A stretch of 45,879 nt of DNA, taken from positions 1 through 45,879 of the forward strand of contig BRYA01000487.1 of NCBI GenBank assembly GCA_030267965.1. The letters run 5' to 3'. The stretch's first letter is position 1, and each line of letters starts with the position of its first letter. Both the position numbers and the translations under genes were made by a program. Origin of the DNA: Triparma columacea. Taxonomy: Eukaryota; Sar; Bolidophyceae; Parmales; Triparmaceae. The notes under the pieces were generated by a model that was not told where the DNA came from, ran no database searches, and worked only from the letters and a program-made list of their open reading frames with translations. This document shows positions 1-35,505 of the stretch, piece by piece.

Positions 1-69
1 CTAACCCTAACCCTAACCCTAACCCTAACCCTAACCCTAACCCTAACCCTAACCCTAACCCTAACCCTA
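1..69. repeat. Telomere, (CCCTAA)n
   Basis: About 11.5 perfect copies of the 6-base unit CTAACC start at base 1 and stop at 69. The C-rich strand reads 5'->3' on the plus strand, which is the orientation expected at the left end of a chromosome (TTAGGG on the outward 3' strand). Seen directly in the sequence. TTAGGG telomeres are known from animals, fungi, diatoms and other protists, so the unit alone does not identify the organism. Confidence 0.97.
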
Positions 70-292: not shown

Positions 293-3200
293 TCACTCCC
301 CATCCTCATCTTCCATCGGCTTTACACTGCTTACTTTATATCTCCCACCTCCATGCTCAACCCCTGTAATAGCTCTACCATCAGCGCCTTCAATACTTGC
401 TCTCCTAATGCTTGCTTTAAAAGCACCTGCTAGACCACCCTCAGCATCAGCGTCAACACTTGCTCTCCTTACACTCTCTCTTTTTCTAGCATCTCCATCT
501 TGTGGAATGTATTCAACTGGCACTCTTGCTTTATAGGCATCACTTAACCAAGGTGGGTTCTCCTCTTCCCATCTATCCCAGTTAGCCACTACCCAAGCTC
601 TTACATCCTCTTCAACTGATTTCCAGTGTTGCTTACTTGTATCAAAAGCTGCATCAGCTTTTACAGAATCGTTACCTTCTTTGAATTTCTTGACAGTCAA
701 GTCCTTTCCTCTTTCCAAACTGATGAAGGTGCCCCAGTAGGTGCTCATAATGCTCATGAAAAAGGCAGCAAAGCAAATTATAGTGATTGGTATAAATGTT
801 TTAACTACTTGCCATGCCAATTTAAGCCCCACTTCTACTACATCACCTCTTTCGGCCAGGACTATAGCTACTGGAAGACTTCCAATTGTCAATACAAGTC
901 CAAACATCCAATACATCCCTCCAACCTCATAAGGATGCCTAAACTGCACAATTGATGTAAAATCTGTGACTACCTTCACCAGTACTCTAGTTACAATGCT
1001 ACTCACTATTTCTGCGTTGCCACCAAAAGGCATCCAATACCAAAAGTCTCCTCTTAAGACCTTCACCAACAAGTATAAACCAAGATCAGCCCCAACATAG
1101 AGAGAGACCCATCTACCACCAAGTAGCCCTAACAAAACTATTGTCATGCACCTTATCACAAGCATACATGCGCTAAATAGCATCAGTGTTGTAAATACAA
1201 TCAATCTTTTGGCAGGATTTGCAGGCACATACCCATAGAAGTCAGGCACTAGTTCTCTCTTCACTGGGTCAGTGTCAAAATCATAACTTATTGTTGCAGA
1301 TGCATAGCCTGTTGTCAGTGCTGAAACTGAAATTGATACCCAAGCTGCGACGGCAACATCTCCATCGTTTGTTGCAATAGCCATAAGTTGGATGATTACT
1401 CCTGGTATGGCCTCAGCAAACATTTCTGCCATCTTCATTGCAGTCATCTCTGTCAAGGCGTCTGTTGCTCGTCCAGCCTCTTGTTTTTCTCCAGTTGCAA
1501 CCCTATAAGCATCAACAGCAGGCTTAAAGCCAATCAAAACAGGAAACCACTCCCTAACCACCCTCAACATCCCCAACTTCCTGTTTGATAACCAAACAAA
1601 AAGCATTTGTATCCCAATTGACACTGCCAAACTTGCCAGAGAAGCCTTGAAGTACCCATACTTCTCATCACTCCAAAACATGTACGTCACATACACATCA
1701 GTCACTAAATCAGTCATACTAGTGATAGCCCCAACAGTTACTCTTGCCTTCAACCCCCAAGGAACTTCCTCCAATAGCCTGTAGCTAATTGTCTCCAACA
1801 TAGGTCTGAACCATTCATATTCCTCGTCAAGCTCCTGTAGAGCAGAGAAATTTAATATGAATGCATCAACAGCAGCAACTGGCTGAGTATTAATAGCCAA
1901 GCTCCTTGCTAAAGACTCTCCAATCTCCCTCCCCTCCTTCTTCCCTACCTCTCCAGCCTTCCCCTTGACATTCCTCAGCCCATGCAATCTATTTTTCACA
2001 ATAGCTGCAAGCATTGGTATGACAAACTCGTACTTTTGAGCCACATCACTCAATATATCGCCATTTATGACAAATTTTCTTACAGAATGTTCTTTTGACA
2101 TTCTCTTCTTTCTAGACTTAACTGCATGTAACAGTTGTCTACCTAGCTCCTGTCCTATAAGTTTAGGATCTGAGATATCTTGTAAATTGTCTCTAAAGAC
2201 GGCTGGAGCTATTCTCACAACATCATCTCCAGTTCCATATCCAATGCTTTCTCGTCTAAGGTTTGCAACCAAAGCACCTCCCACGCCATTTTCTCCATCA
2301 AGATCAGCACTTGCACGCCTGATACTCTCTCTTTGTCTTGATGTAGCTGAAGGAATGTATTCCACAGGCACTCGTGATTGTGTTGCTTCATCAAACCACT
2401 CTGGCTTCTCCTCCTCCCATCTATCCCAATTTGCCTCTACCCAAGCTTTTACTTCCTCTTCTATCGACTCCCAATGGTGCTTTGAGTTACTGAATATTGA
2501 ATCTGCCTTTAATGCATCATCAGCTGAATCTCTAAAGCGTTGTACTGTTAAGTCCTTTCCCCTTTGCAAACTGAAGAAGGTGCCAAAATACTTCCTCTCA
2601 GTACTCAAGAGAAAGATAAGAAAAGATACAAAAGCGAATGGTATAACTGATCCAGCTACTGCCCATGCCAATTTAAGTCTCTTGTCTGCAACATCTCCCT
2701 TTTCAGCTAGAATTATGGCAAATGGAAGACTTCCCAACGTCATCACAAATCCAAACATCCAATATATACCTCCAATCTCATTAGGGTGTCTAAACTGCAC
2801 AATTGAGGTAAAGTCTGTCACAACTTTTACCACCACTCTATTGACAATACTATTCACAACTTCTGTATTGCCACCAAGAGGCATCCAATACCAAAAGTCT
2901 CCTCTCAAGACCTTCACCAACAAATACAGAAGCATATCAGCACCAACATAGAGAGAGACCCATCTACCATCAAGGAGCCCTAACAAAACTATTGTCATGC
3001 ACCTTATCACAAGCATACATGCGCTAAAGAGCATCATTGCAACAAATATGATTGATCTCTTTGTGGGATTTGCAGGCACATACCCATAGAAGTCAGGCAC
3101 ATTTTCTCTATTCACTGGGTCAGTGTCCCAGTCATAACTAATAGTTGCAGATGAATAGCCTGTTGTCAATGCTGAAACTGAAATTGAGACCCAAGCTGCA

Positions 3201-3620
3201 TCTGCAATCTCTCCATCATCTGTTGCAATAGCCATAAGTTGAATAATCACTCCAGGTATGGCCTCAGCAAACATCTCAACCATTTTCATTGCAGTCAACT
3301 CTGTCATAGCATCAAGTGCTTGTCCAGCCTCTTGTTTTGCCCCCTTTGCAACCCTGTAAGCATCAACAGCAGGCTTAAAGCCAATCAAAATTGGAAAGCA
3401 CTCCCTAAGCACCCTTAACATCCCCAACTTCTTGTTTTGTACCCAAACCAAAAGCATTTGTATCCCAATTGACACTAACAAACTTGCCAATGATGCCTTA
3501 AAGTATCCGTACTTCTTATCACTCCAAAACATATACGTCACATACACATCAGTGAGCAAATCAAACATGGATGTAACAGCACCAACAGTAACTCTCCATA
3601 ACATACCCCACGGAGCCATT
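293..3620 (-). repeat. In-gene tandem duplication of the membrane module, about 1.85 kb
   Basis: Two adjacent blocks of the last exon match at both DNA and protein level with a constant offset of about 1850 bases. TSMTDLVTDVY (about 1700) pairs with TSMFDLLTDVY (about 3550); DFYGYVPANP (about 1230) pairs with the same word at about 3080; the RESVRRAS tail (about 470) pairs with RESIRRAS (about 2320). Much of the protein appears above 80% identical by eye, so the duplication looks younger than the split from the single-module gene at 43561-45447. Confidence 0.9.
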
Positions 3621-6600
3621 TTCACCACCCCCTTCCCAATCTCCACAAACATGCCCTCCATCCACGGAAACTCCTCAAACAGCTCCCCAACAGCCCTGTT
3701 CTGCAACCTCCACATATCTACTCCAGCCTCAATCACCTTCCTGCTCTTCAAACAAGGCATCAAATTGTTCCCAATCACCCTTGCTTCCTTCTCCTCCACA
3801 CACTCAAGCTTGGTAGACACTGAGCTGTTGGAGCTATACTCACAAAGCCTTGCCCTCTTCAGCAAAGTAACAAACCAAGGGTACTTCTTCACAACCTCTC
3901 TCAAAGCGACATTCTTGTTGCAAACCTCCTCAACATGTCTCTCTCTGTCCTTCCTTGAGTGTGCTCCTCCAAGTTGTCCTCCATCCCAAACCAAATCAGC
4001 ACCCAATGCCTCGCCAACTTGCTTAGACATCTCCTTTAAGGGGACAAGGTCAATAAAGTAGCGTTCTGCTTCAGCAGCTTCATCTAGGTGCCTCTCCAGA
4101 GTTGATCTTGTTGCCTTCACACTCAAGCTTTCCCCAAGCTCTACCTTGGTGACAAATTCTACCTTGGTTGCCTTCTCTCCCCTCTTTGTGAACTTTATTG
4201 CGACTTCTTCAGATGCCCTTTGTGCAGTAGATCTCTGACTGTTCCTTACAGCATTTCTTCTCTCCCTGTTAGGGTTAGGGTGAACCCTAACCTCTTTCTT
4301 TATTGGCTCCATTATAATCACAATAGTATTTTCATCCATCTTGTGCAGCTTCATCACATTCAAGAACTCCCTATCTCTATTTTTGACACCATGTTGTGAT
4401 TCCAACTTCTGCCTTCTCCTTACAACCACTTCCCATTCTCCCTTCTTCTCCTCAACAACCCTCTCAACGTCTCCTGTTGTTTCTTGATGGACTCTGCTCT
4501 CAAAGTCCCAGAAGTAGGCAGCACATTCCTCCAAACCTGCTCTAACTGTCACTGTTGTCTTTCCCCATCCCTTTCCCTTGTCTTCCACCTTAATCCAGGT
4601 ATCTGAAAGAGGGAATGCACCTTTAACCTTTTGCTTGCCTTCAAGCTCTAGAAAATTGGCATCAAATGTCTTAGTGGACATTTCTTTGATTTCACCTATT
4701 CCACTTATTATCTGGATCCTTGTTGAAGCATCAATGTCTCTGCTTCTGTCAAACTTCTTCCTCAAGTTTGAGACTTGTGCAAGAAACCTTGGTGCAATTT
4801 TGTTTATGATGGAAGAGTAGAAAACACCACCAAGATCTACCTTTGTTGTGAAAGTCGCTGATGTTTGTGGCACACCTCCAATAGGGTCAAGCGGCTCAAA
4901 TATCCATACTGTGTGTGCCTTCCCTAAAACATTCCCAGCCTTCACTGGAAAGTCTACATGAATATCCTCTGTGTCTGCAACATCAATGATAACTTTGCCA
5001 TCATCTTGCTTGCACCAGGTCACTTTACTCCTCCCATCACGCGGAACAAATCCAGGGATACCAAGATTCCTTGTTGTGATATAGTAGAGAGTGTGGAGGT
5101 TCACATTGATGGTTTTTAAGAAAGTGAGTCCCCATTTCTTTACATCATTTCTGAGCTCTCTGCTGTACAATAATGATATTTGTCTTGCAGCACACTCCTC
5201 CACACTCGCATCAACCACAGTAGTGGCAAAACCAGTCCCACTGCTTTCCCCATCAACATGAACTAGCTTCATCTTGACCCTCTCATCAGGACTCTTCAAA
5301 TCATCAAAATTCCTCCCCTCCTTGCATTTCTCATAAAACTCTTTCCCCTTCCTGATTGCCGCCTTCTCCTCATCTGTATAATCTTGAGTCTCATTCTTGA
5401 TGATGTTGGCAAGAGAGGCTAGTGCAGCTTTGTCAACTTCCTTGCTCTGATCAAAAGTTCTTGAAATGCTGTCTAAAATTTTCAGAGCTTTTGGCAAACT
5501 TTTGTCCAAAACGGATGTGGGAACAAATCCACCAAGGTCAAAGTACTGCTGCATTCTAATGTTACACTGAGGTATGCTCCCAACACTCTTTATGTTGGTT
5601 GCAGTGATAAGCAACTTTGAAGTTCCTCTCACCAGCTTTCTTGTATTTTCTCCGTAATCTGGGTCCCCGTCCACTGATATCCCTGCTACAGTGTAACTAC
5701 CATTTTCTTCCTTCCTCCAGACAAACTTGATCATAAAGTTGCGGTTGTTGAGAAGTTTTGGCATCTTCTTGATGAAGGCGACGAGCTTCTCGTTTATCCT
5801 ATTATCTGCCTTTTTAATCTCAAATCTTGCATGATTTCCCTCTTCCCTGTCAATTCGCGTCCTCTCCCTGCTGCAGTACTCAAAGAACCATGCAGCTGCC
5901 TCCTCCGCAGTGCAATCTGCTGTGCTTTCTCCTTGTCCAAGAGCAAGGCTCCTCTCTCCCTGTACCTGTTGCTGGTATTTGATCTTCATCTTCACTCCCT
6001 CGTAAGGTGACTTCAGAGGCCTCCATCCTCCTTTGCCCTCCCCACCAAAGAGCTTCTCCAACTCCCCAAAAACCTTCTTCTGGTCCTCCTCCAACTCAAA
6101 CCCTTCCCTCATTCTTTCCACCAAGGCCTCCCTGACCTCAGCATCAACCTTCTTCCCATTTCTCCTGAACTTCTCCTGTAACCTGTTGGCCTCAACAAGC
6201 TGATTCTTTGTAAGGTACTCAATTGCATTGTCCATCAATGTCTTTTGAAGAAGGCCAGTAAATTTCAGATCTACTGTTTGAACGCGTGTCACTCTGCAGA
6301 CATTTGGGGCAATCTCATTGAAAAAGTAGACACCTGTACTCTCTGCTAGCACAAATCCTTCCTTACTGAGGTCCTTGAAGCCTCCTCCAGGGTACTCTGT
6401 CAGTGGCACAAAAGCTAACATGTATGAAGTCCCTCCATTCTCAAGTTTGACTTCCTTCCAAGAGAACCAGGATTCAAAGAGACGGTCTTTTGCTGGGTTA
6501 GGTAAGTGAATTCCTTGGTGTTGATGGTGACTTCTAGTTCCATCAACATTCTGTCTAAAACCCCTAGGCAGATTGCCATTCTCTTTCAGATGGTCTCCTG

Positions 6601-9600
6601 CATAAGTGTATGTGTTGCCTAAACTTAGCTCAGCCAGCATACCCTCTGTTGACTTGTCCACAGTGACCCCAAAGGCTCCCCACACCTTGTCCCCCTGTCT
6701 CCACAGGAACTTGTCCACTCCCTCCTTCAATGTCCCCTTGACTCTCTTTCCCTTCTCATACAGCTCATTCTCCAACCCTCCAACTCCATCTAGCATGCTC
6801 TCCTCCTCAACTGTCAGTGGAGGTGGTCTTGGAATAACCTCCTCCACAAAGTGCTTCTTCCTCCTCTCATCAATAACCTCAGGATTGTGAAAGTTCTTCT
6901 CGATCTCCTCCACAAGGCTTTTGATTGACGCGTAAATGGTGTTGACGTCCCCCCTTTCCCCCCCCTCACTTGCCATTAGCCCAGATGGTTTGTTCCGTTT
7001 GACCATACCTTTAGTTTTCTGACGAAACAACCCTTTGCCTGGACTTGGTGAGCCTGGAGTTCCTGGCGCACTCCCCTCGACCTCCTCGACTTCCATCATT
7101 CCGACAAGAGTAAGCGCGGTTTGCCCATATTCGTAGCTCGCAAGCCTGAGCTCACCCTTGACCCTCGCTCTCAGCGCATTCGTGGAAGTCACAATCTTTA
7201 CAAGTTTCATCTTCGCCTTCTTCGGTAAGCTTTTCTCCTCCTCCGACTTTATCACTACGCACCGGCTGGAGCCTTGATTTCTCACGTGAATTCTTAGGAG
7301 ATACTCGACGACTGTTGTCCCCTTGTAATGCTGCCAAAGCACAATCCTTCCTCCCTCCCCACCCCCTCCCACATGAATAATCTCACGTCGGAACGCTCCC
7401 ACACTTGAACCAGCGAGGATGTAATCGAGGACACGCTCTTTCTCGTCGTGAACGACTACGCCGACGTTCGCTCTCTTACTATTCCAAGACTCCTCGATGA
7501 TTCCTTCAACGGCACCCCTCTCCACGAGCTTTCCCATCATGCTGTCATGAACCTTACCATTCTTCTCTTCCCTTAGAATGTCGGAGTCGCTTCCAAGACT
7601 GACTGCTTTCAACACATATCTGGCGTCCTCATGAGACGTTTCAGTTGCTGCGGATGGCGTTTGTAAGTCAATATGAAAAAGATATCCACGCGTGCCCCTC
7701 GATGCCGCATGCCATCGCCGCAGAAGTGCCCCATGCGGTCGCCACAGACGGAACCCACGCGGTCGCCGGGGACGGCACCCACGCGGTCGCCAGAGACGGA
7801 TCCCATGCGGTCGCCGCAGACCGGCGCGCACGGGCGTGCGCCATGGCCTCCGCCCGTCGAGCTTGACGCCGAGGGCCAGGCCCTCCGCAAATGGCTCCGC
7901 GCATTCCACACTCAGGCAGGGAGAAAAAACTACAAAGTTTCAACGCGCCCTCCCGCGACTCTCTCGCTCTCCCCTAGAGTATTAAAATGTGTTATTCCTT
8001 TCCCCGCTCTCAACGCACAACTCACCTTGTTCCGCGTCCTCGTGGCGGTTTTTGGAGTCTGCGGTAATGGCGATCGTGGTGTTTGTGAGTCAACATGAAA
8101 AGATTTCCATGCGTGCTCCTCGTTTCTGTGTAGCATATCAAGCGCCCCACGCAGTCGCCGGAGAAGCGTCCCATGCGGTCGCCGCAGAAGCATCCCATGC
8201 GGTCGCCGCAGAAGCGTCCCATGCGGTCGCCGCAGACGGAACCCACACGGTCGCCGGGGACGGATCCCATGCGGCGCCGGAGACGGATCCCATGCGGTCG
8301 CCGCAGACCGGCGCGCGTTTCTGTGTAGAATATCAAGGGTCTCCCCCCCTACAACCCCTTGAAACGAACTTACCTCGGTCTCGTCCAGCGTCCTCGTGAG
8401 AGCTTTTAGATTTAGAGACTGTGAAGGGGACAACACAACACATTGCAAAAGTGAGAAAAAAATACAGAGCTTCAACGCGTCCTCCCGCGACTCTCCCACT
8501 CTCTCCTAGAGTATTAATTTGTCCTTTCTCTCTTCCGGCTCTCAATGCACAACTCACCTCGTCCGGCGTCCTCGTGATCATTTTCAGAGTCTGTGGTAAT
8601 GGCGATCGTGGTGTTTGTGAGTCAACATGCAGAGATTTCAGCGCGTGCTCCTCGTTTCTGTGTAGCATATCAAGCGCCCCACGCGGTCGCCGGAGAAGCT
8701 TCCCATGCGGTCGCTGCAGAAGCGCCCCATGGCGGTCGCCGCAGAAGCGCCCAATGCGGTCGCCGCAGACGGAACCCACGCGGTCGCCGGAGACGGATTC
8801 CATGCGGTCGCCGCAGACCGGTGCACGCGCGCGTGCGCCGCGGCCCCGCCCATCGAGCTCGTTGCCGAGGGCCAGGCCCTCCGCGAACGGCTCCGCGCGT
8901 ACCACACTCAGGCAGTGAGAAAAAACTACAAAGTTTCAACGCGCCCTCCTGCGACTCTCCCACTCTCTCCTAGAGTATTAACATATATTTTTTCTTATCC
9001 GGCGCTCAACCATAACTCACCTCGTCCCGCGTCCTCGTGAGACATTTCAAGTGCTGCAGAGGAAACGACAAAGAGGGGGGAAAGTGAGTAAAATTTGCAA
9101 ACTTCATCTTGTCCTCCCACACATCTACCGCCCTCTCCTTGAGTATAAATATATTCTTTTTCTCCTCGAGCACTCGACGCTCACTCACCTCGTCTGGCTT
9201 CCCCATGATCATCTTCAGATTCTGCGGGTGTGGAAATGTTGATATTTTTGAGCTTTTTTTTATCATTTCATCAGGCTTCCCAACGACCTATCTTTTTCCC
9301 ACTGCACCACCGAATGGCATCCTTCTCATCTCACCCCCTACGCAAACTCACCTCGTCTGACGTCTCCATGAAGCCCATCAATATCAGCAGTTGCCCCAAG
9401 GTTGACAGCATAGTCATTTGCCTTAACGACATCAGCGGCAATTTCGTGGTCTTCGGTTGCGTCAGCATGCCCGACAATAGCAGACTGATCCGCGGCGGAA
9501 TCAGCGGCGGCGGCAAGAAGGACAGCAAGTTCAGTTGCAGCACTGACAATGTCAGTAGAGGTGCCATCGTGCGCAGTGCCCTTGACGGCGGCAACAAGGT

Positions 9601-11897
9601 TGTTGGCTGCTGATGCTGTAGACGTAAGATCGGCAGTATGTTGAGCTTTAGTTGCCCTTAAGTCGGCTTTCAATCCAGCTATCTCTTTGTCCCTCTGCTT
9701 CAGGAGAATGGTTAAATCCATCTCACTGTCCGCCATCAGGGTTACGGAAACTTTCTCGCCCACCGACGCAGTTCCGCGGGGAATCGAAGACCTCTCTGCG
9801 CCAACTCTAACCGCAGCTCCGTCTCCTCCAACCACACCTCTTACTTTCTCTAGCCCCAGCCCATAGTCCACTTCGCTCCCACCCTTATCATTTACCATTC
9901 GCCTCACCCCAGCAGACTTGATGGACCCTTGTGACCCACCTACAAGGTGCGACACATTATCCCTGCCTATTCCCACCGTACTCCCTCCTCTTCCTCCTCC
10001 CATTCTTGTCCCAACACCCATATTCATAACCTTTCTCCTCTCCTGCGCCTGTGTGAGGAGCGAAGCAAATCGCGAAAGCAAAGACGTTAGTAAGTTAGGA
10101 ATAGTAACGTCGACCGTAGGGGATGCGAGATTATATTTAGAGACAAAATCAACACGTGCATGGGCGTGGCTTGCAAGGTGCGACATCGTTTTTACTCCGA
10201 TTCCTTTCTCACCTGTGACAAGCGTGGAGGGTTGTGCAAGAATGGGGTTTTACGAAGAGTTAGTATCGCAGCGGCAGTGTGTGAGGCTTGAGGTGCATCT
10301 TATATAGAATNNNNNNNNNNNNNNNNNNNNNNNNNNNNNNNNNNNNNNNNNNNNTTTGTTAATGAAGATATACGTGTTGGTGGGGTTGACACATATACTA
10401 AATGATATTTGACGAGCCTCTGCAGTCACACAAACTCCGCGTGCTAAACCCCCCTTATCATCTACCTCCCCCCTTTAACCCCCATCTACCCTTATCTCAC
10501 CTCTTTCAGCTCCCTCGGTTTTAGTGTCGAGCGCACTCTTCTCACTTGACGTGTTTAATTTCACGCCCTCGCTTGTACTGTCGACCTGCGACGGCAGCGA
10601 GACTCCATCACCTTCAGAGAGGGATCCCTCTTGAGGATATACGTACCCGCCTCGAGGCCCTGCTGTGATGGTAAGTGTGGTTACATCCGCAACGGTGCGT
10701 TTCGAGATGACATTGGCTGTTTTAGTTAGCATTGGATGAAATTTGACGAGCTTCAACTGCCCTACGAACGCCGCAAGCAGCCTCTCCTTGTCCTTCTCCT
10801 CTATCTCCCTCCAAGCAGACCAAACTACCCGAACTCACCTCGCTCAACCCACTCAGCGTTTGCGTTGCGCGAAACCATCCTCGAGACTTCCTCCTTTTTC
10901 TCGATTGAAATCTCAGTCCCATTTGCACCTTTTGACGGCGTTGGGTCTCCCTTATAATTACGAGGGTCTTCTACATTGCGCTGCAGTTGTGAAAGAATGG
11001 GTACCCTCCCCTCCAGATCATCTCTTTCCCGATTCACCATTTCGTTCGCCCCTGACCAATCGTATACATCCTCCCTCTCCTCCCTTTGAAACTTCGACTT
11101 CCCTAAGCTTCTATTTCGCTCCTCTTTTACTTCCCCTGCCCTCCTCTCCCTCCTCCGAGCCTCGGCTCGTCCTCCTGCAAAGAGCGAAGCAGATGGTGAA
11201 AAGTGTTTAGTTTAATTGTTCGACTCGTGTAAGGGCGGCTAAAAACAAAGTAGATGGTCACGAGCACAATTTGTGCCGGTATTAAATGTTTCTCCGTTTT
11301 AATCTCATGACGTTCTTTCCCTTTTTCGTCCATTCTCACCTTCCTGCCAGAAACCTTCACCCTCCTCATGAGACCTAGGCGACGCTACGAACTTAGAATC
11401 GCTTTCTACTACGGGTGGTAGACCCTCCTCAAGCTCCCTGTTGACCTCAATGACTGCTCCGTCCGACTCTTCTTGGTCATCAATGGTATTTGCAGCAGAC
11501 ATTACCTCTCTCGATGCAGGCATGCCTTCATTTGAGTTCACGACTTTCGATGGTTCTGAAACTCCTTCAGTTTGAAAGAGGTCCCCATCCTCGGCTATCC
11601 CCCGAGTCTGAGGATCTCTGCTGGACGTTTCTGCGGTGGTGGAACGATGGCAGGGGGGGGAGGTTGTTAGCTCGTAAGCTTTGAGACTTTGAACGTTCCT
11701 CAGTCGGACAGAACCCCTCCGCCCCCCTTAACATTCCCTAACGAATACTCGCAACCTATTTACGTACCTTCCTTGACTCTGTTAGTCCTCTCACTAACCT
11801 CTATCATGTCCTCAAAGGCCAGTTCGCCCAACAGGTTTGACTGTGAGGGGTCGGTATGCCCTTCTTCTTGTTGTCCGGTCTTGGAAGAATTACTCAT
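293..11897 (-). CDS. Giant START-domain / polytopic membrane protein, 12 exons, about 3110 aa
   Basis: Exons, right to left: 11897-11768 (ATG), 11630-11340, 11174-10839, 10761-10501, 10298-10213 (5' edge uncertain, beside an assembly gap), 10048-9352, 9221-9189, 9053-9021, 8590-8558, 8418-8374, 8058-8026, 7647-293. Every junction is GT-AG and the frame is kept throughout: all introns are phase 1 except the one before 10048, which is phase 0. Five START-like segments (ECAA near the start, DLGG...KFDxS...D near the end) lie at about 7600-7095, 6730-6090, 6005-5400, 5290-4690 and 4615-4010. Two membrane modules follow, about 3620-2560 and 1755-695, each containing TDVYVTYMFW, IPGVIIQLMAIAT and DFYGYVPANP and a tail with RRAS phospho-like sites. 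START domains bind lipids; the modules faintly resemble XK-related scramblases. A role in lipid transfer or scrambling is inference. Alternative: a sensor or adaptor with unknown ligand. Confidence 0.75.
7717..7820. repeat. GC-rich intronic minisatellite, block 1
   Basis: Diverged copies of a unit of about 24-27 bases built on GCGGTCGCCGCAGA lie inside the intron that precedes the last exon of the giant gene. Related blocks occur in two other introns of the same gene. Downstream, about 100 bases (7823-7925) are also shared with 8818-8925. Open frames through the block on both strands are a by-product of a unit length divisible by three. Confidence 0.85.
8142..8318. repeat. GC-rich intronic minisatellite, block 2 (24-base unit)
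   Basis: The clearest block. The 24-base unit beginning CCATGCGGTCGCCGCAGAAG repeats nearly perfectly three times around 8168-8240, then grades into longer variants containing GACGGA. It lies in the 315-base intron between the 33-base exon 8026-8058 and the 45-base exon 8374-8418. Confidence 0.9.
8672..8825. repeat. GC-rich intronic minisatellite, block 3
   Basis: Same family as the blocks at 7717 and 8142, in the 430-base intron between exons 8558-8590 and 9021-9053. It is followed by the 100-base GC-rich segment (8818-8925) shared with 7823-7925. The arrangement shows that whole intron-exon units were copied with the minisatellite inside. Confidence 0.88.
10311..10354. other. Assembly gap (44 Ns)
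   Basis: A run of 44 N lies in the giant gene. To its left (minus-strand downstream) an exon ends at 10213 in phase 0, which the next exon (10048) needs. To its right (10355-10419) is a segment after a CTGCAG acceptor that resembles the start of exon 10761-10501 (both read LVK[YF]H). At least part of one duplicated exon may be missing or collapsed here. Confidence 0.95.
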
Positions 11898-29869: not shown

Positions 29870-32504
29870 ATGCCCAATTATGATGACTATAGTGATGACT
29901 ATAGTGACGACAATAGTGATGAGGATAGTGATGACTATGACGACCCAGATGACGACCAAGATGAATACTATCCCCTATCCTATCCCCCACACACAGCAGT
30001 TTACGGGAGCTTCAGAGGCAATCATGAACTCACAGAAGTTACTTTTGCACCAGGAGTTACGTCGATTGCCGAGGGCGCCTTCTACAGATGCACCTCCCTC
30101 ACGGCCATCACCATCCCGGACGGAGTGACGACAATTGGCAAATGCGCCTTCAGGAAATGCTCCTCTCTCACGGCCATCACCATCCCAATTGGAGTGACGA
30201 TGATTAGCGAGTGCGCCTTCAAGGGATGCTCCTCCCTAACGGTCGTAACCATCCCGGACTCAGTGACGATGATTAGCAAGTGCGCCTTCAGGAAATGCTC
30301 CTCTCTCACGGCCATCACAATCCCTGACGGAGTGACAGAGATTGGCAGTGAAGCCTTCAGAAGTTGCTCCTCCCTCACGGCCATCACCATCCCGGAGGGA
30401 GTGACGACAATTAGCGATTACGCCTTCTGTGGATGCTCCTCCCTCACGGCCATCACCATCCCGGATGGGGTGAAGATGATTGGCCGTTGCGCCTTCTCTG
30501 GATGCGACTCCCTCACTGCCATCACCATCCCGGATGGAGTGACGACGATTGGCGGTTTCGCCTTCTCTGACTGCTCCTTCACCGCAATCACAATCCCGGA
30601 CGGAGTGACAACGATTAGCAATCACGCCTTCAGAGGATGCTCCTCCCTCACGGCCATCACAATCCCAGACTCAGTGACAATGATTGGCAATTACGCCTTA
30701 TCTGGATGCTCCTTCACGGCCATCACCATCCCGGACGGAGTGACGATGATTAACGAGGGCGCCTTCATTGGATGCCGCTCCCTCACGGCCATCACCATTC
30801 CTGACGGAGTGACGACGATTGGCTATGCCGCCTTCAACGGATGCTCCTCCCTCACGGCCATCACAATCCCGGACTCAGTGACAACAATTGGCGAACGCGC
30901 CTTGTACGGATGCTCCTCCCTCACGGCCATCACCATCCCTGATGGAGTAACGATGATTAGCGAGAGTTCCTTCGAAAGATGCTTCTCCCTCACGGCCATC
31001 ACAATCCCGGACGGAGTGACAACGATTGGCAAACACGCCTTCGCAGAATGCTCCTCCATCACGGCCATCACTATCCCAATTGGAGTGACGACAATTTGCG
31101 AAAGCGCCTTCTACAGATGCTCCTCCCTCACGGCCATCACCATCCCTGATGGAGTGACGATGATTAGCGAGAGTTCCTTCGATGGATGCTTCTCCCTCAC
31201 GGCCATCACCATCCCGGACGGAGTGACAACGATTGGCAAACGCGCCTTCGCAGAATGCTCCTCCCTCACGGCCATCACCATCCCGGACGAAGTGACGACA
31301 ATTGGCGAACGCGCCTTCAAAGACTGCTCCTCTCTCACGGCCATCACTATCCCAATTGGAGTGACGACAATTTGCGAAAGCGCCTTCTACAGATGCTCCT
31401 CCCTCACGGCCATCACCATCCCTGATGGAGTGACGATGATTAGCGAGAGTTCCTTCTATGGATGCTTTTCCCTCACGGCCATCACCATCCCAGATGGAGT
31501 GACGACAATTGGCAATTACGCCTTCTCTGGATGCTCCTCCCTCACGGCCATCACCATCCCAGATGGAGTGATGTCGATTGGCCGTGCTGCCTTCAGGGAT
31601 TGCCCCGCCTTGACGAAACTCATTCTATCTCCTGGCGTCTCCATCGGTGATGAATGCTTCTTGAACTGCACTGTCCTAATCGCTGCTGCTGCTGATAAAA
31701 ATATGCCGTCTGTCAAGGACCTCCTCCATTACAGGTGGCACCGTAACGTCGCTGTGATGGAACGCGTCACCGCTCTACTGTGCCTCAAGGCTGGGGGCCA
31801 GCCAACTGTCGTCAAGCTGCAGCAGGTAGGGATGTGGGGGGGAGGAGAAAAACACTGAGGCAGAGCAAAGGCTCCTTATCGTGTCAACTAACGCAACTCC
31901 GTTTCTTCCGCCTCCCCTACAGAGCAACCCCGCAATGACGGCCAACCCCAACGCCAACGCTGATGGGTTACCCAACGTCGCCCCCACCACCCTCAACGCT
32001 AACCACTCCATGGCCGCCGGGAACCTCCAGCCTGGTCAGCAAGCCCCCGCCAACGGCGACGGGGCCGCTGCCGCTGGAACCGCCAACAACACCAACCGGC
32101 AGCAGGTGCTCCGGCACCAGCAGCAGCACCTTCTCCTCCTTCGCCACTCCGCGAAGTGCCCCCACGAGAACGGGAAGTGCCCCGTCACGCCTCACTGCGC
32201 CGGCATGAAGCGGCTCTGGAAGCATATTGTCGAGTGCAAGGACCAAAAGTGTCAATTCCCTCACTGCATCTCCTCCCGCCACTTGCTCTCCCACTACCAC
32301 CGTTGTAAGGACGCCCGCTGTCCCGTCTGCATACCCGTCCGCGAGGCCATCAACGGAGCCGGGGTTCACGTGGAGAATCAACCCGGGACATCGGGGAGTC
32401 TGAAGCGGAAGCGAACGGACGGAGTTGAAGCCCCGCTAAAGGCAACTGAGGCACGTGAGAAGATCCCGAAAGTTTTGTGGAGAGTAATTCTGGAGTTTGT
32501 CTAA
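29870..32504 (+). CDS. BspA-type LRR protein with C-terminal TAZ zinc finger, 2 exons, 845 aa
   Basis: Exons 29870-31825 and 31923-32504, phase 0, exactly 846 codons. An acidic DY/DD tract (residues 1-34) precedes about 24 leucine-rich repeats of the LRR_5/BspA type, 23 residues each (consensus SSLTAITIPDGVTTIGxxAFxxC; two copies are one residue short). A conserved cap follows (NMPSVKDLLHYRWHRNVAV). Exon 2 has an Asn/Ala/Gln linker, then a TAZ-type zinc finger at about 716-790 (HSAKCPHENGKCPVTPHC; MKRLWKHIVECKDQKC; HYHRCKDARCPVC), and a basic KRKR stretch that may be a nuclear signal. TAZ domains bind transcription activators in CBP/p300; the LRR array is a binding surface. There is no signal peptide, so a nuclear or cytosolic role is likely. 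The ATG at 29870 is preferred to 29741 because it matches the paralogue and does not overlap the divergent gene. Confidence 0.85.
30040..31620 (+). repeat. 69-base LRR unit array in the first LRR gene
   Basis: Tandem 69-base units coding 23-residue repeats. Two units are 66 bases (reading CSFTAITIP). A block of three to four units (SESSF / GK[HR]AFAEC / ICESAFYRC) recurs within 30950-31460, showing recent local copying. Confidence 0.9.
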
Positions 32505-33057: not shown

Positions 33058-35505
33058 ATGAGTGAATTAGACTTTGCTTATGGTGATGACTATAGTGATG
33101 ACAATGGTGATGAGTATGGTGATGACTATAGTGATGACTATGGTGGTGACTATGGTGATGCCTATGAAATCCCAGCTGGGTACTATCCCCTTCCCAAAAC
33201 AGCAGTATACTCCGGAACAGAGAGCTTCAAAGACAATCATGAACTCACAGAAGTGACTTTTGCACAAGGAGTGACGTCCATTGGCGATGAAACCTTCAGG
33301 GGATGCTCCTCCCTCCCGGCCATCACCATCCCAGATGGAGTGACAACGATTGGCGATGGCGCCTTCTGGGGATGCTCCTCCCTCACGGCCATCACCATCC
33401 CGGACTCAGTGACAACGTTTGGCAATAGCGCCTTCTACGAATGCTCCTCCCTCGCGGCCATCATCATCCCGGAAGGAGTGACGATGATTGGCGAATACGC
33501 CTTCTGCCTCTGCTCCTCCCTCATGGCCATCACAATCCCGGATGGAGTGACGATAATTTGCAAGGAAGTTTTTTGCGAATGCTCCTCCCTCACGGCTATC
33601 ACCATCCCGGACTCAGTGACGATTATTCGCCATCAAGCTTTTAGGGGATGCTCCTCCCTCATGGCCATCACCATCCCGGACGGAGTGACGATCATTGGCG
33701 GTGGCGCCTTCAGGGAATGCTCCTCCCTCACGTCCATCACAATCCCGGACAGAGTGATGACGATTGGCAATAGCGCCTTCTACGAATGCTCCTCTCTCAC
33801 GGCCATCACCATCCCGGAAGGAGTGACGATGATTGACAAATGGGCATTCTTCGAATGCTCCTCTCTCACGGCCATCACCATTCCGGACGGAGTGACAATT
33901 ATTTCTCTTCAATCTTTCTGCAGATGCTCCTCCCTCACGGCCATCACAATCCCAGACGGAGTGACGACGATTAGTGAGGGCGCCTTCTACGGATGCTCCT
34001 CCCTCATGCCCATCACCATCCCGGACTCAGTGACAACGATTGGTGAACGCGCCTTCTGCGAATGCTCCTCCCTCACAGCCATCACCATCCCGGACAGAGT
34101 TATGATGATTGGCGAAGACGCCTTCAGGGAATGCTCCTCCCTCACGTCTATCACCATCCCAGATGGAGTGACAACGATTGGCGATGGCGCCTTCTGGGGA
34201 TGCTCCTCCCTCACGGCCATCACCATCCCGGACTCAGTGACAACGTTTGGCAATAGCGCCTTCTACGAATGCTCCTCCCTCACGGCCATCATTATCCCGG
34301 AAGGAGTGACGATGATTGGCGAATACGCCTTCTGCTCCTGCTCCTCCCTCATGGCCATCACAATCCCGGATGGAGTGACGATAATTTGCAAGGAAGTTTT
34401 TTGCGAATGCTCCTCCCTCACGGCTATCACCATCCCGGACTCAGTGACGATTATTCGCCATCAAGCTTTTAGGGGATGCTCCTCCCTCATGGCCATCACC
34501 ATCCCGGACGGAGTGACGATCATTGGCGGTGGCGCCTTCAGGGAATGCTCCTCCCTCACGTCCATCACAATCCCGGACAGAGTGATGACGATTGGCAATA
34601 GCGCCTTCTACGAATGCTCCTCTCTCACGGCCATCACCATCCCGGAAGGAGTGACGATGATTGACAAATGGGCATTCTTCGAATGCTCCTCTCTCACGGC
34701 CATCACCATTCCGGACGGAGTGACAATTATTTCTCTTCAATCTTTCTGCAGATGCTCCTCCCTCACGGCCATCACAATCCCAGACGGAGTGACGACGATT
34801 AGTGAGGGCGCCTTCTACGGATGCTCCTCCCTCATGCCCATCACCATCCCGGACTCAGTGACAACGATTGATGAACGCGCCTTCTGCGAATGCTCCTCCC
34901 TCACAGCCATCACCATCCCGGACAGAGTTATGATGATTGGCGAAGACGCCTTCAGGGAATGCTCCTCCCTCACGTCCATCACAATCCCTGACGGATTGAC
35001 GTCGATTGGCGATGGCTCCTTCAGCGGATGCTCCTCCCTCACGGCCATCACCATCCCGGACGGAGTGACGACAATTGGCAACTGGGCCTTCAGCGGATGC
35101 TCCTCCCTCGCGGCCATCATCATCCCGGACGGAGTGACGTCGATTGGCGATTTCGCCTTCTACGAATGCTCCTCCCTGACGGGATTCAATTTATCTCCTG
35201 CTGTCTCCATTGGTGAAGTTTGCTTCTCAAACTGCACTGCCCTAATCGCTGCCGCTGCTGATAAAAATATGCCGTCTGTCGAGGACCTCCTCCATTACAG
35301 GTGGCACCGCAATGTCGCTGTGATCGAACGCGTCAACGCTCTACTCTGCCTCAAGGGAACCTGGGATCACGTGGAGAATCAACCCAGTGGACCTAATAGT
35401 CTGAAGCGGAAGCGAACGGACGGAGTTGAAGCCCCCCTAAAGAGGACTGAGGCACGTGACAAGATCCCGAAAGTTTTATGGAGAGTAATTCTGGAGTTTC
35501 TGTAA
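33058..35505 (+). CDS. BspA-type LRR protein lacking the TAZ finger, 815 aa
   Basis: Single-exon paralogue of the gene at 29870. An acidic GDDYSDD tract precedes 29 LRR_5/BspA repeats of 23 residues. The same cap follows (NMPSVEDLLHYRWHRNVAV) and nearly the same C-terminus (KRKRTDGVEAP; KIPKVLWRVILEFL). Between the cap and the tail the first gene has an intron, linker and TAZ finger; here CLK runs almost directly into HVENQP, so those parts were lost here or gained there. Twelve repeats (33307-34134) are copied next door (34135-34962) with only a handful of base changes seen. There is no signal peptide. Likely a protein-binding scaffold; ligand unknown. Confidence 0.85.
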   Translation: MSELDFAYGDDYSDDNGDEYGDDYSDDYGGDYGDAYEIPAGYYPLPKTAVYSGTESFKDNHELTEVTFAQGVTSIGDETFRGCSSLPAITIPDGVTTIGDGAFWGCSSLTAITIPDSVTTFGNSAFYECSSLAAIIIPEGVTMIGEYAFCLCSSLMAITIPDGVTIICKEVFCECSSLTAITIPDSVTIIRHQAFRGCSSLMAITIPDGVTIIGGGAFRECSSLTSITIPDRVMTIGNSAFYECSSLTAITIPEGVTMIDKWAFFECSSLTAITIPDGVTIISLQSFCRCSSLTAITIPDGVTTISEGAFYGCSSLMPITIPDSVTTIGERAFCECSSLTAITIPDRVMMIGEDAFRECSSLTSITIPDGVTTIGDGAFWGCSSLTAITIPDSVTTFGNSAFYECSSLTAIIIPEGVTMIGEYAFCSCSSLMAITIPDGVTIICKEVFCECSSLTAITIPDSVTIIRHQAFRGCSSLMAITIPDGVTIIGGGAFRECSSLTSITIPDRVMTIGNSAFYECSSLTAITIPEGVTMIDKWAFFECSSLTAITIPDGVTIISLQSFCRCSSLTAITIPDGVTTISEGAFYGCSSLMPITIPDSVTTIDERAFCECSSLTAITIPDRVMMIGEDAFRECSSLTSITIPDGLTSIGDGSFSGCSSLTAITIPDGVTTIGNWAFSGCSSLAAIIIPDGVTSIGDFAFYECSSLTGFNLSPAVSIGEVCFSNCTALIAAAADKNMPSVEDLLHYRWHRNVAVIERVNALLCLKGTWDHVENQPSGPNSLKRKRTDGVEAPLKRTEARDKIPKVLWRVILEFL
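33307..34962 (+). repeat. Near-identical 828-base tandem duplication (12 LRR units x 2)
   Basis: The block 33307-34134 recurs at 34135-34962 with an exact offset of 828 = 12 x 69 bases. Differences noticed: AFCLC versus AFCSC, TIGER versus TIDER, and a few silent changes. The underlying 69-base unit is itself tandemly repeated through the gene. Confidence 0.95.

Follow-up and report, generated by a model that had tools for sequence, protein, structure and literature searches.

How does a gene come to spread a protein repeat over a row of tiny exons, one copy to each, and what would such an arrangement do? The question is raised by a 45,879-nt contig (BRYA01000487.1, assembly GCA_030267965.1) of Triparma columacea (Bolidophyceae), a marine alga related to diatoms; the whole contig is referred to as the window herein. 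An earlier note, made from the DNA letters alone, described a run of mini-exons on its minus strand, and our analysis of the sequence confirmed five spliced-type mini-exons between two large exons. We read them as a genuine array of spliced, symmetric (1-1) mini-exons that forms a telomere-proximal, frame-safe exon-shuffling joint in a T. columacea gene family, and we place the probability of this reading at roughly 80%.

The array in the window and across the genome

In gene order, the 5′ large exon (9352..9736, minus strand, as are all exons and introns of the gene; alpha class) runs from a likely start at ATG 9736 to the half repeat HGDVRR. It is followed by intron 1 (9222..9351, 130 nt), mini-exon 1 (9189..9221, A type, 33 nt, ESEDDHGEARR), intron 2 (9054..9188, 135 nt), mini-exon 2 (9021..9053, B type, 33 nt, ALEMSHEDAGR), intron 3 (8591..9020, 430 nt), mini-exon 3 (8558..8590, D type, 33 nt, DSENDHEDAGR), intron 4 (8419..8557, 139 nt), mini-exon 4 (8374..8418, C type, 45 nt, VSKSKSSHEDAGRDR), intron 5 (8059..8373, 315 nt, GTAAGT..CAG), mini-exon 5 (8026..8058, D type, 33 nt, DSKNRHEDAEQ) and intron 6 (7648..8025, 378 nt, GTGAGT..CAG). 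The 3′ large exon (293..7647) opens with ATETSHEDARY and continues through a START-like and XK-related body to a stop at ∼293. All junctions are phase 1, all six introns are bounded by GT..AG within canonical splice-site sequences, and the joined exons form a single open frame, so that the array proposed in the earlier note (33, 33, 33, 45 and 33 nt) was recovered with exact borders. Its further claim of half-repeats at both flanks held for the 5′ exon, which carries the second half of the repeat only, and failed for the 3′ exon, where the copy is nearly whole. The introns proved to be copies related to one another and to form two length classes, short and long. The long ones do carry a GC-rich minisatellite, with a 24-nt unit, in intron 3 (8672..8817), intron 5 (8146..8308) and intron 6 (7703..7821). 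The spliced product would measure 2788 aa if translation began at ATG 10186 and 2638 aa if it began at ATG 9736. The latter is the likelier start codon since 35 of 40 sequence matches begin at query 452-454, which is window 9739-9737; of the same 40 matches, three (the window itself and two others) span both halves and two cover the upstream half only. Upstream of the gene, 44 consecutive N (10311-10354) presumably mark a scaffold gap, and an Rfam search of window 7000-10600 at gathering thresholds gave no match.

The array is not peculiar to this gene. We searched 37.85 Mb in 789 contigs; the genome paper (PMC10328945) describes the T. columacea assembly as 43.0 Mb in 1,858 scaffolds. A profile built from the five window exons gave 273 matches. 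Scoring of 40 of 196 first-look candidates yielded 115 matches on 40 contigs, and the array architecture was present in 40 of the 40 loci that we read, namely the window and 39 other places, one per contig. When exon borders were set by whichever acceptor and donor scored best, length being left free, 197 of 198 mini-exons were multiples of three, and 210 introns delimited in the same way fell 65/71/74 over the three remainders, although the copies are homologous and hence not independent events in such counts. The sole non-multiple, a 53-nt exon at L026, is really the 3′ flanking exon with a false donor. For later counts, we dropped it and added 12 exons that have a weak acceptor score and AG at -33; that choice fixes their length at 33 nt, and 197/198 remains the unbiased figure. 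The resulting set of 209 contains 158 exons of 33 nt, 49 of 45 nt and two of 39 nt. It excludes four matches fitting 30, 39, 39 and 45 (or 29) nt, a piece at L043 that fits no rule, six 3′-flank rows marked "?" and the other 5′ and 3′ flank rows. Thus the arrays read share tandem exons of fixed length in multiples of three and a single intron phase.

A wider pattern, consisting of the D-exon start, 10-36 free bases and a donor, allows exon lengths of 20-46 nt and detects only D exons with the commonest ends. It matched 181 times genome-wide and never in either of two controls. Among the 100 matches listed, which reach contig 327 of 789, every one is exactly 33 nt, and 69 lie on 40 contigs outside the loci read.

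The likeness of the introns across arrays raises another explanation, in which introner-like mobile introns were inserted repeatedly into a pre-existing protein repeat and exon-plus-intron units were never duplicated. Intron-only searches gave 246 and 400 first-look candidates (40 of each scored), which speaks in its favour. We checked 81 intron rows, 41 of 73 from the first search and all 40 from the second, and 64 of them keep the company of the gene family, with 29 inside loci read and 35 near a listed exon or START body. Furthermore, exons travel with their own intron class: the median intron length before an exon is 339 nt for D, 137 for C45, 133 for B and 120 for A, with overlapping ranges. 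The other 17 rows had no neighbour among the listed exons or bodies. Five were later explained, three of them on C380, one on C57 with an alpha 5′ exon beside it, and one on C565 with a family body; 12 are unexplained. The C380 locus (L049), picked because its intron matches had no known neighbour, contains an array of the order D-C45-D-D with a beta-like 5′ exon. We consider repeated intron insertion very unlikely.

Splice signals, reading frame and selection

We infer from the sequence that the arrays are spliced. Among the 209 mini-exons, 203 are followed by one of two donors (GTGAGT in 147, GTAAGT in 56) and 208 are preceded by the acceptor CAG. For 182 of 188 B, C and D exons, the 60 nt before the exon include a branch-point-like motif (CTNAC/CATAAC), in most cases 30-37 nt ahead of the acceptor, a count made with no shuffled control. 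The last base is G in every one of the 209 mini-exons and of the 37 5′ flank exons detected. The junction codon is therefore GNN and never a stop, and the combination of 3n length, phase 1 and terminal G means that any subset, order or number of units stays open. By frame, the alternative inclusion of repeats suggested in the earlier note is possible.

Selection on the coding sequence is clear for the D exons, the commonest type. Across 87 distinct sequences, the ratio of nonsynonymous to synonymous variation (pN/pS) is 0.31 in the true frame, or 0.33 when the junction codon is left out, and 1.12 and 0.92 in the two other frames. This is purifying selection, and it is confined to the true frame. 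For the other types such selection is weaker or unclear, with B exons at 0.47 and C33 at 0.56.

These data also bear on the possibility that the array is non-coding debris of old exons and that the living gene starts within the 3′ open reading frame (ORF), at GTG 7909 or in the last intron. A 2538-aa ORF (293-7909) is indeed open without splicing, the last intron contains the starts of database models of relatives (P0004 and P0010 begin MLTNITNTIIAIT), and P0011, an MMETSP transcript protein of a relative, lacks the array. However, debris would not be expected to keep exon length while intron length drifts, to retain canonical splice sites in all counted exons or to show a pN/pS near 0.3 in the right frame only. 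Nor is the family decaying, since all 150 family bodies scored are stop-free in the match. An unspliced reading from 7909, though open, conflicts with both the selection on the exons and the conservation of their length, and we rejected it. We therefore regard a relic as very unlikely.

Several observations weigh against a genuine spliced array and its use as a joint. The branch-point-like motif precedes none of the 21 A exons, and pN/pS is 1.54 for A exons (12 distinct sequences) and 0.61 for C45 exons. Stops fail to single out the frame: they occur in 185 of the 209 exons when the second frame is read, but in only one exon each for phase 1 and for the third frame. The phase-1 case is a 45-nt C45 exon at L015 (C277) that ends in an in-frame stop (..GQD*), so this gene may be broken or may skip the stop-bearing exon. 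The genome paper has RNA of T. verrucosa, T. laevis f. inornata, T. retinervis and "Scaly parma", and T. columacea is not among these four strains (PMC10328945). When the spliced array was compared with 5.8 billion proteins, 217 candidates were returned with nothing at E ≤ 10, and the most that we saw in gene models was the joining of two units in P0010, from T. columacea itself. Gene models largely miss the array; those of T. columacea were built from protein hints alone (PMC10328945). Lastly, the assembly was made from 150-nt Illumina pairs with Platanus (PMC10328945), and the exact stretches that a locus shares with another have a median of 118 nt and a maximum of 155 nt. With reads this short and shared stretches this long, the copy number of a single locus and the linkage of its 5′ and 3′ parts may be artefacts.

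Copying of units and mixing of modules

In the assembly, the arrays vary in copy number from 2 to 11 mini-exons (median of 5 over the 40 loci), and the frame is kept throughout, as the earlier note had anticipated. Alpha genes mostly open with A-B, and 11 of 20 follow the order A-B-C45-D; beta genes carry runs of D and C45. That the protein repeat is carried by intron-plus-exon units is borne out by copying seen directly at other loci. Exact within-locus repeats hold a whole mini-exon at L002 (205 nt) and L011 (123 nt), and near-identical pairs (≥93% over ≥200 nt), each with an exon, occur at L009 (96%, 254 nt) and L016 (93%). Other exact repeats hold no exon, one of 246 nt at L040, which is intron only, and one of 151 nt at L009. 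Since the near-identical pairs at L009 and L016 were the only recent tandem duplications found by this criterion, most unit copies are old or only partly homogenised. Tandem duplication, offered in the earlier note as the origin of the array, is supported for units elsewhere. The window array was mostly inherited rather than made in place: the pair of A and B exons with which it begins stands at the head of 20 of the 40 arrays that we read, the window array among them.

We propose the following mechanism. A unit is one intron plus one 33- or 45-nt exon, each exon encoding an acidic/His-rich linker repeat of 11 or 15 residues; the repeats are flanked by an N-terminal module on one side and, on the other, by a START/XK-related body that contains several hydrophobic segments. 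Units would be gained, lost and exchanged whole, most likely via unequal crossing over or gene conversion in shared intron sequence, and the frame stays open whichever 5′ and 3′ modules an array connects. The array would thus play two parts, that of a linker of variable length at the protein level and, at the gene level, that of a joint where recombination is safe for the frame.

The flanking modules do occur in different pairings. We assigned them to classes by eye, finding alpha 5′ exons in 21 loci, beta in 15, gamma in two and delta in one, with one unread, and 3′ parts of classes I-VI. Alpha exons are paired with class I six times, II 13 times, V once and an unassigned 3′ part once; beta exons with II once, III eight times, IV twice, V once, VI once and an unassigned part twice. 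The remaining pairings are gamma-III (two), delta-III (one) and unread-III (one). For L010 and L032 the class was judged on a short tail, and L020, put in II, differs at the start of its 3′ exon. A maximum-likelihood tree was built from at most 330 nt of the alpha 5′ exon at each of 20 loci (the 21st, L012, has no 3′ class and was left out); 11 of its 17 inner branches are weakly supported. The 3′ class requires six changes on this tree, and class I as a single clade is rejected (approximately unbiased (AU) test, p 0.0001); the mixing had been noticed before the tree test, so this p value does not come from a blind test. Arrays are shared across a large telomere-proximal gene family and have seemingly been recombined within it. 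The array at L043 (C2) encloses a piece that resembles the end of the beta 5′ exon, as though recombination had placed a gene start there.

This 5′/3′ shuffling is supported but open to assembly error. Real arrays could have been joined by the assembler at near-identical introns, so that different chromosome ends became chimeric contigs. The Illumina-only Platanus assembly (PMC10328945) makes this conceivable, as do exact stretches of ≥100 nt shared with another locus in 32 of 40 loci (≥150 nt in four) and array matches that end ≤200 nt from a contig end in four of 40. Against chimerism, classes I and II occur in both alpha 5′ subclades and the monophyly of class I is rejected. In addition, assemblers usually break rather than join at near-identical repeats. 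While such chimeras are a more serious concern than the two alternatives above, we consider it unlikely that they account for the mixing, and we favour recombination through the arrays.

The encoded proteins, chromosome ends and known systems

The body of the window gene comprises a START fold and two XK-related stretches, and a simple scan for hydropathy marks nine hydrophobic segments. The START-fold domain (5381..6088, minus strand) was modelled with a mean predicted local distance difference test score (pLDDT) of 78. In Foldseek, its best PDB match was the START domain of CERT (E about 1e-10, template modelling (TM) score about 0.6). The Pfam START match is sub-threshold in the window protein (E 0.0026) and present in four of 12 relatives (best E 2.7e-5). 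A PDB sequence search with the family profile gave nothing at E ≤ 1, so the assignment rests on the predicted fold and weak Pfam matches. The better-scoring XK-related stretch (2801..3589, minus strand; residues 1348-1610 of the 293-7630 translation) matches PF09815 with E 3.8e-12 and 46.3 bits against a curated cut-off of 24.8, and of the 12 proteins in the alignment, 10 have a PF09815 match with E ≤ 0.01. Pfam found no family in the N-terminal 529 aa, which include the array, and a self-BLAST of the window protein for internal repeats returned the self line alone. The START/XK body family is large: 150 of 373 first-look candidates were scored in the body search. Enrichment of START in Parmales is reported in the genome paper (PMC10328945). 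A paralogue, P0001 (TrCOL_g6642), lies at C378:4748-5839 (L047), and its first 364 aa match contig C378 at 100%. Its first 190 residues form a single open frame that contains an in-exon repeat of the NTAAPEAAD kind and no HEDAGR-type repeat. Because this repeat is in-exon and of another kind, the linker repeats of the family may have arisen in two ways.

Array genes point toward contig ends. In the window, the contig begins with the telomere repeat (CTAACC)n (1..69, 11.5 copies, 100% match), and only ∼220 nt separate it from the 3′ end of the gene. In 39 of 40 loci the array is closer to the contig end on its 3′ side, at a distance of 4.5-9 kb in 29, less in nine and 10.5 and 14.4 kb in two; 38 loci thus lie within 9 kb of a contig end, not all such ends being telomeric. 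Among the first 100 telomeric places listed, three contigs, C70 (75,484 bases), C71 (84,296) and C75 (67,733), carry correctly oriented (TTAGGG)10 at either end and look like complete chromosomes of only 68-84 kb. We counted 1116 telomeric 24-mers, about six per end where listed, which suggest well over 100 telomeric ends in the genome. T. columacea may therefore have very many tiny chromosomes, and the N50 of 63-83 kb in five of eight parmalean assemblies (PMC10328945, Table 1) fits this idea. The string "telomer" is absent from the main text of that paper. Elsewhere in the window, two long arrays of a 69-nt (23-residue) repeat, at 30053-31598 and 33268-35182, lie within ORFs of 705 and 815 aa; the unit resembles BspA-type leucine-rich repeats.

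A broader reading, which we advance tentatively and with somewhat less than even confidence, is that this is a system of telomere-based protein diversification. Hundreds of START/XK genes near chromosome ends would share a universal frame-safe mini-exon joint, recombination between any two ends would produce new linker lengths and new 5′/3′ pairs, and splicing may add further variants.

The earlier note called the design unusual, which holds, although it has a precedent in Tetrahymena. There, the arrays of 90-bp exons in leucine-rich repeat (LRR) genes were put down to unequal crossing over that shuffled exons (Xiong et al. 2019, PMC6564038). In both organisms the exon arrays lie near chromosome ends. 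The Tetrahymena exons are in phase 2, encode leucine-rich repeats, number in the tens of thousands, are supported by RNA-Seq and have a LINE-like (long interspersed nuclear element) sequence beside the units (PMC6564038). The arrays of T. columacea instead have 33/45-nt exons in phase 1 that encode an acidic/His linker and join different 5′ and 3′ modules, the long introns of the window contain 24-nt minisatellites, and the host is a stramenopile alga. With these exon lengths, this phase and a DSENGHEDAGR-type repeat, homology to the Tetrahymena genes was rejected. The micro-exon genes (MEGs) of Schistosoma are similar in their runs of very short exons, mostly multiples of three, with alternative splicing possible, and differ in encoding secreted proteins and in having introns of 100 to almost 5000 nt (PMC10526429). 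In T. columacea, by contrast, the exons are mutual copies, and the large modules that they connect belong to a protein for which membrane segments are predicted. Those of MEGs are mostly unlike one another. Tandem exons of 81 bases were reportedly described by Davis et al. in 1988. In metazoan exon shuffling, phase 1 at both ends of symmetric 1-1 modules permits their insertion, loss and swapping, but those modules are whole folded domains, whereas the units here encode 11-15 residues. Our searches of the open-access literature on Parmales subtelomeres, Triparma exons and exon arrays, which leave subscription papers uncovered, showed no report of this array.

If our reading is true, chromosome-end exon-array genes would have been invented independently in a free-living relative of diatoms. 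The best-described case of the design is that of Tetrahymena, whose describers considered that it might have evolved only once (PMC6564038). With at least 181 strictly matching exons in one genome, it could be tested in nature how a joint tolerant of recombination arises from intron phase, exon length and end bases together, and whether such frame-safe joints drive the diversity of gene families at telomeres.
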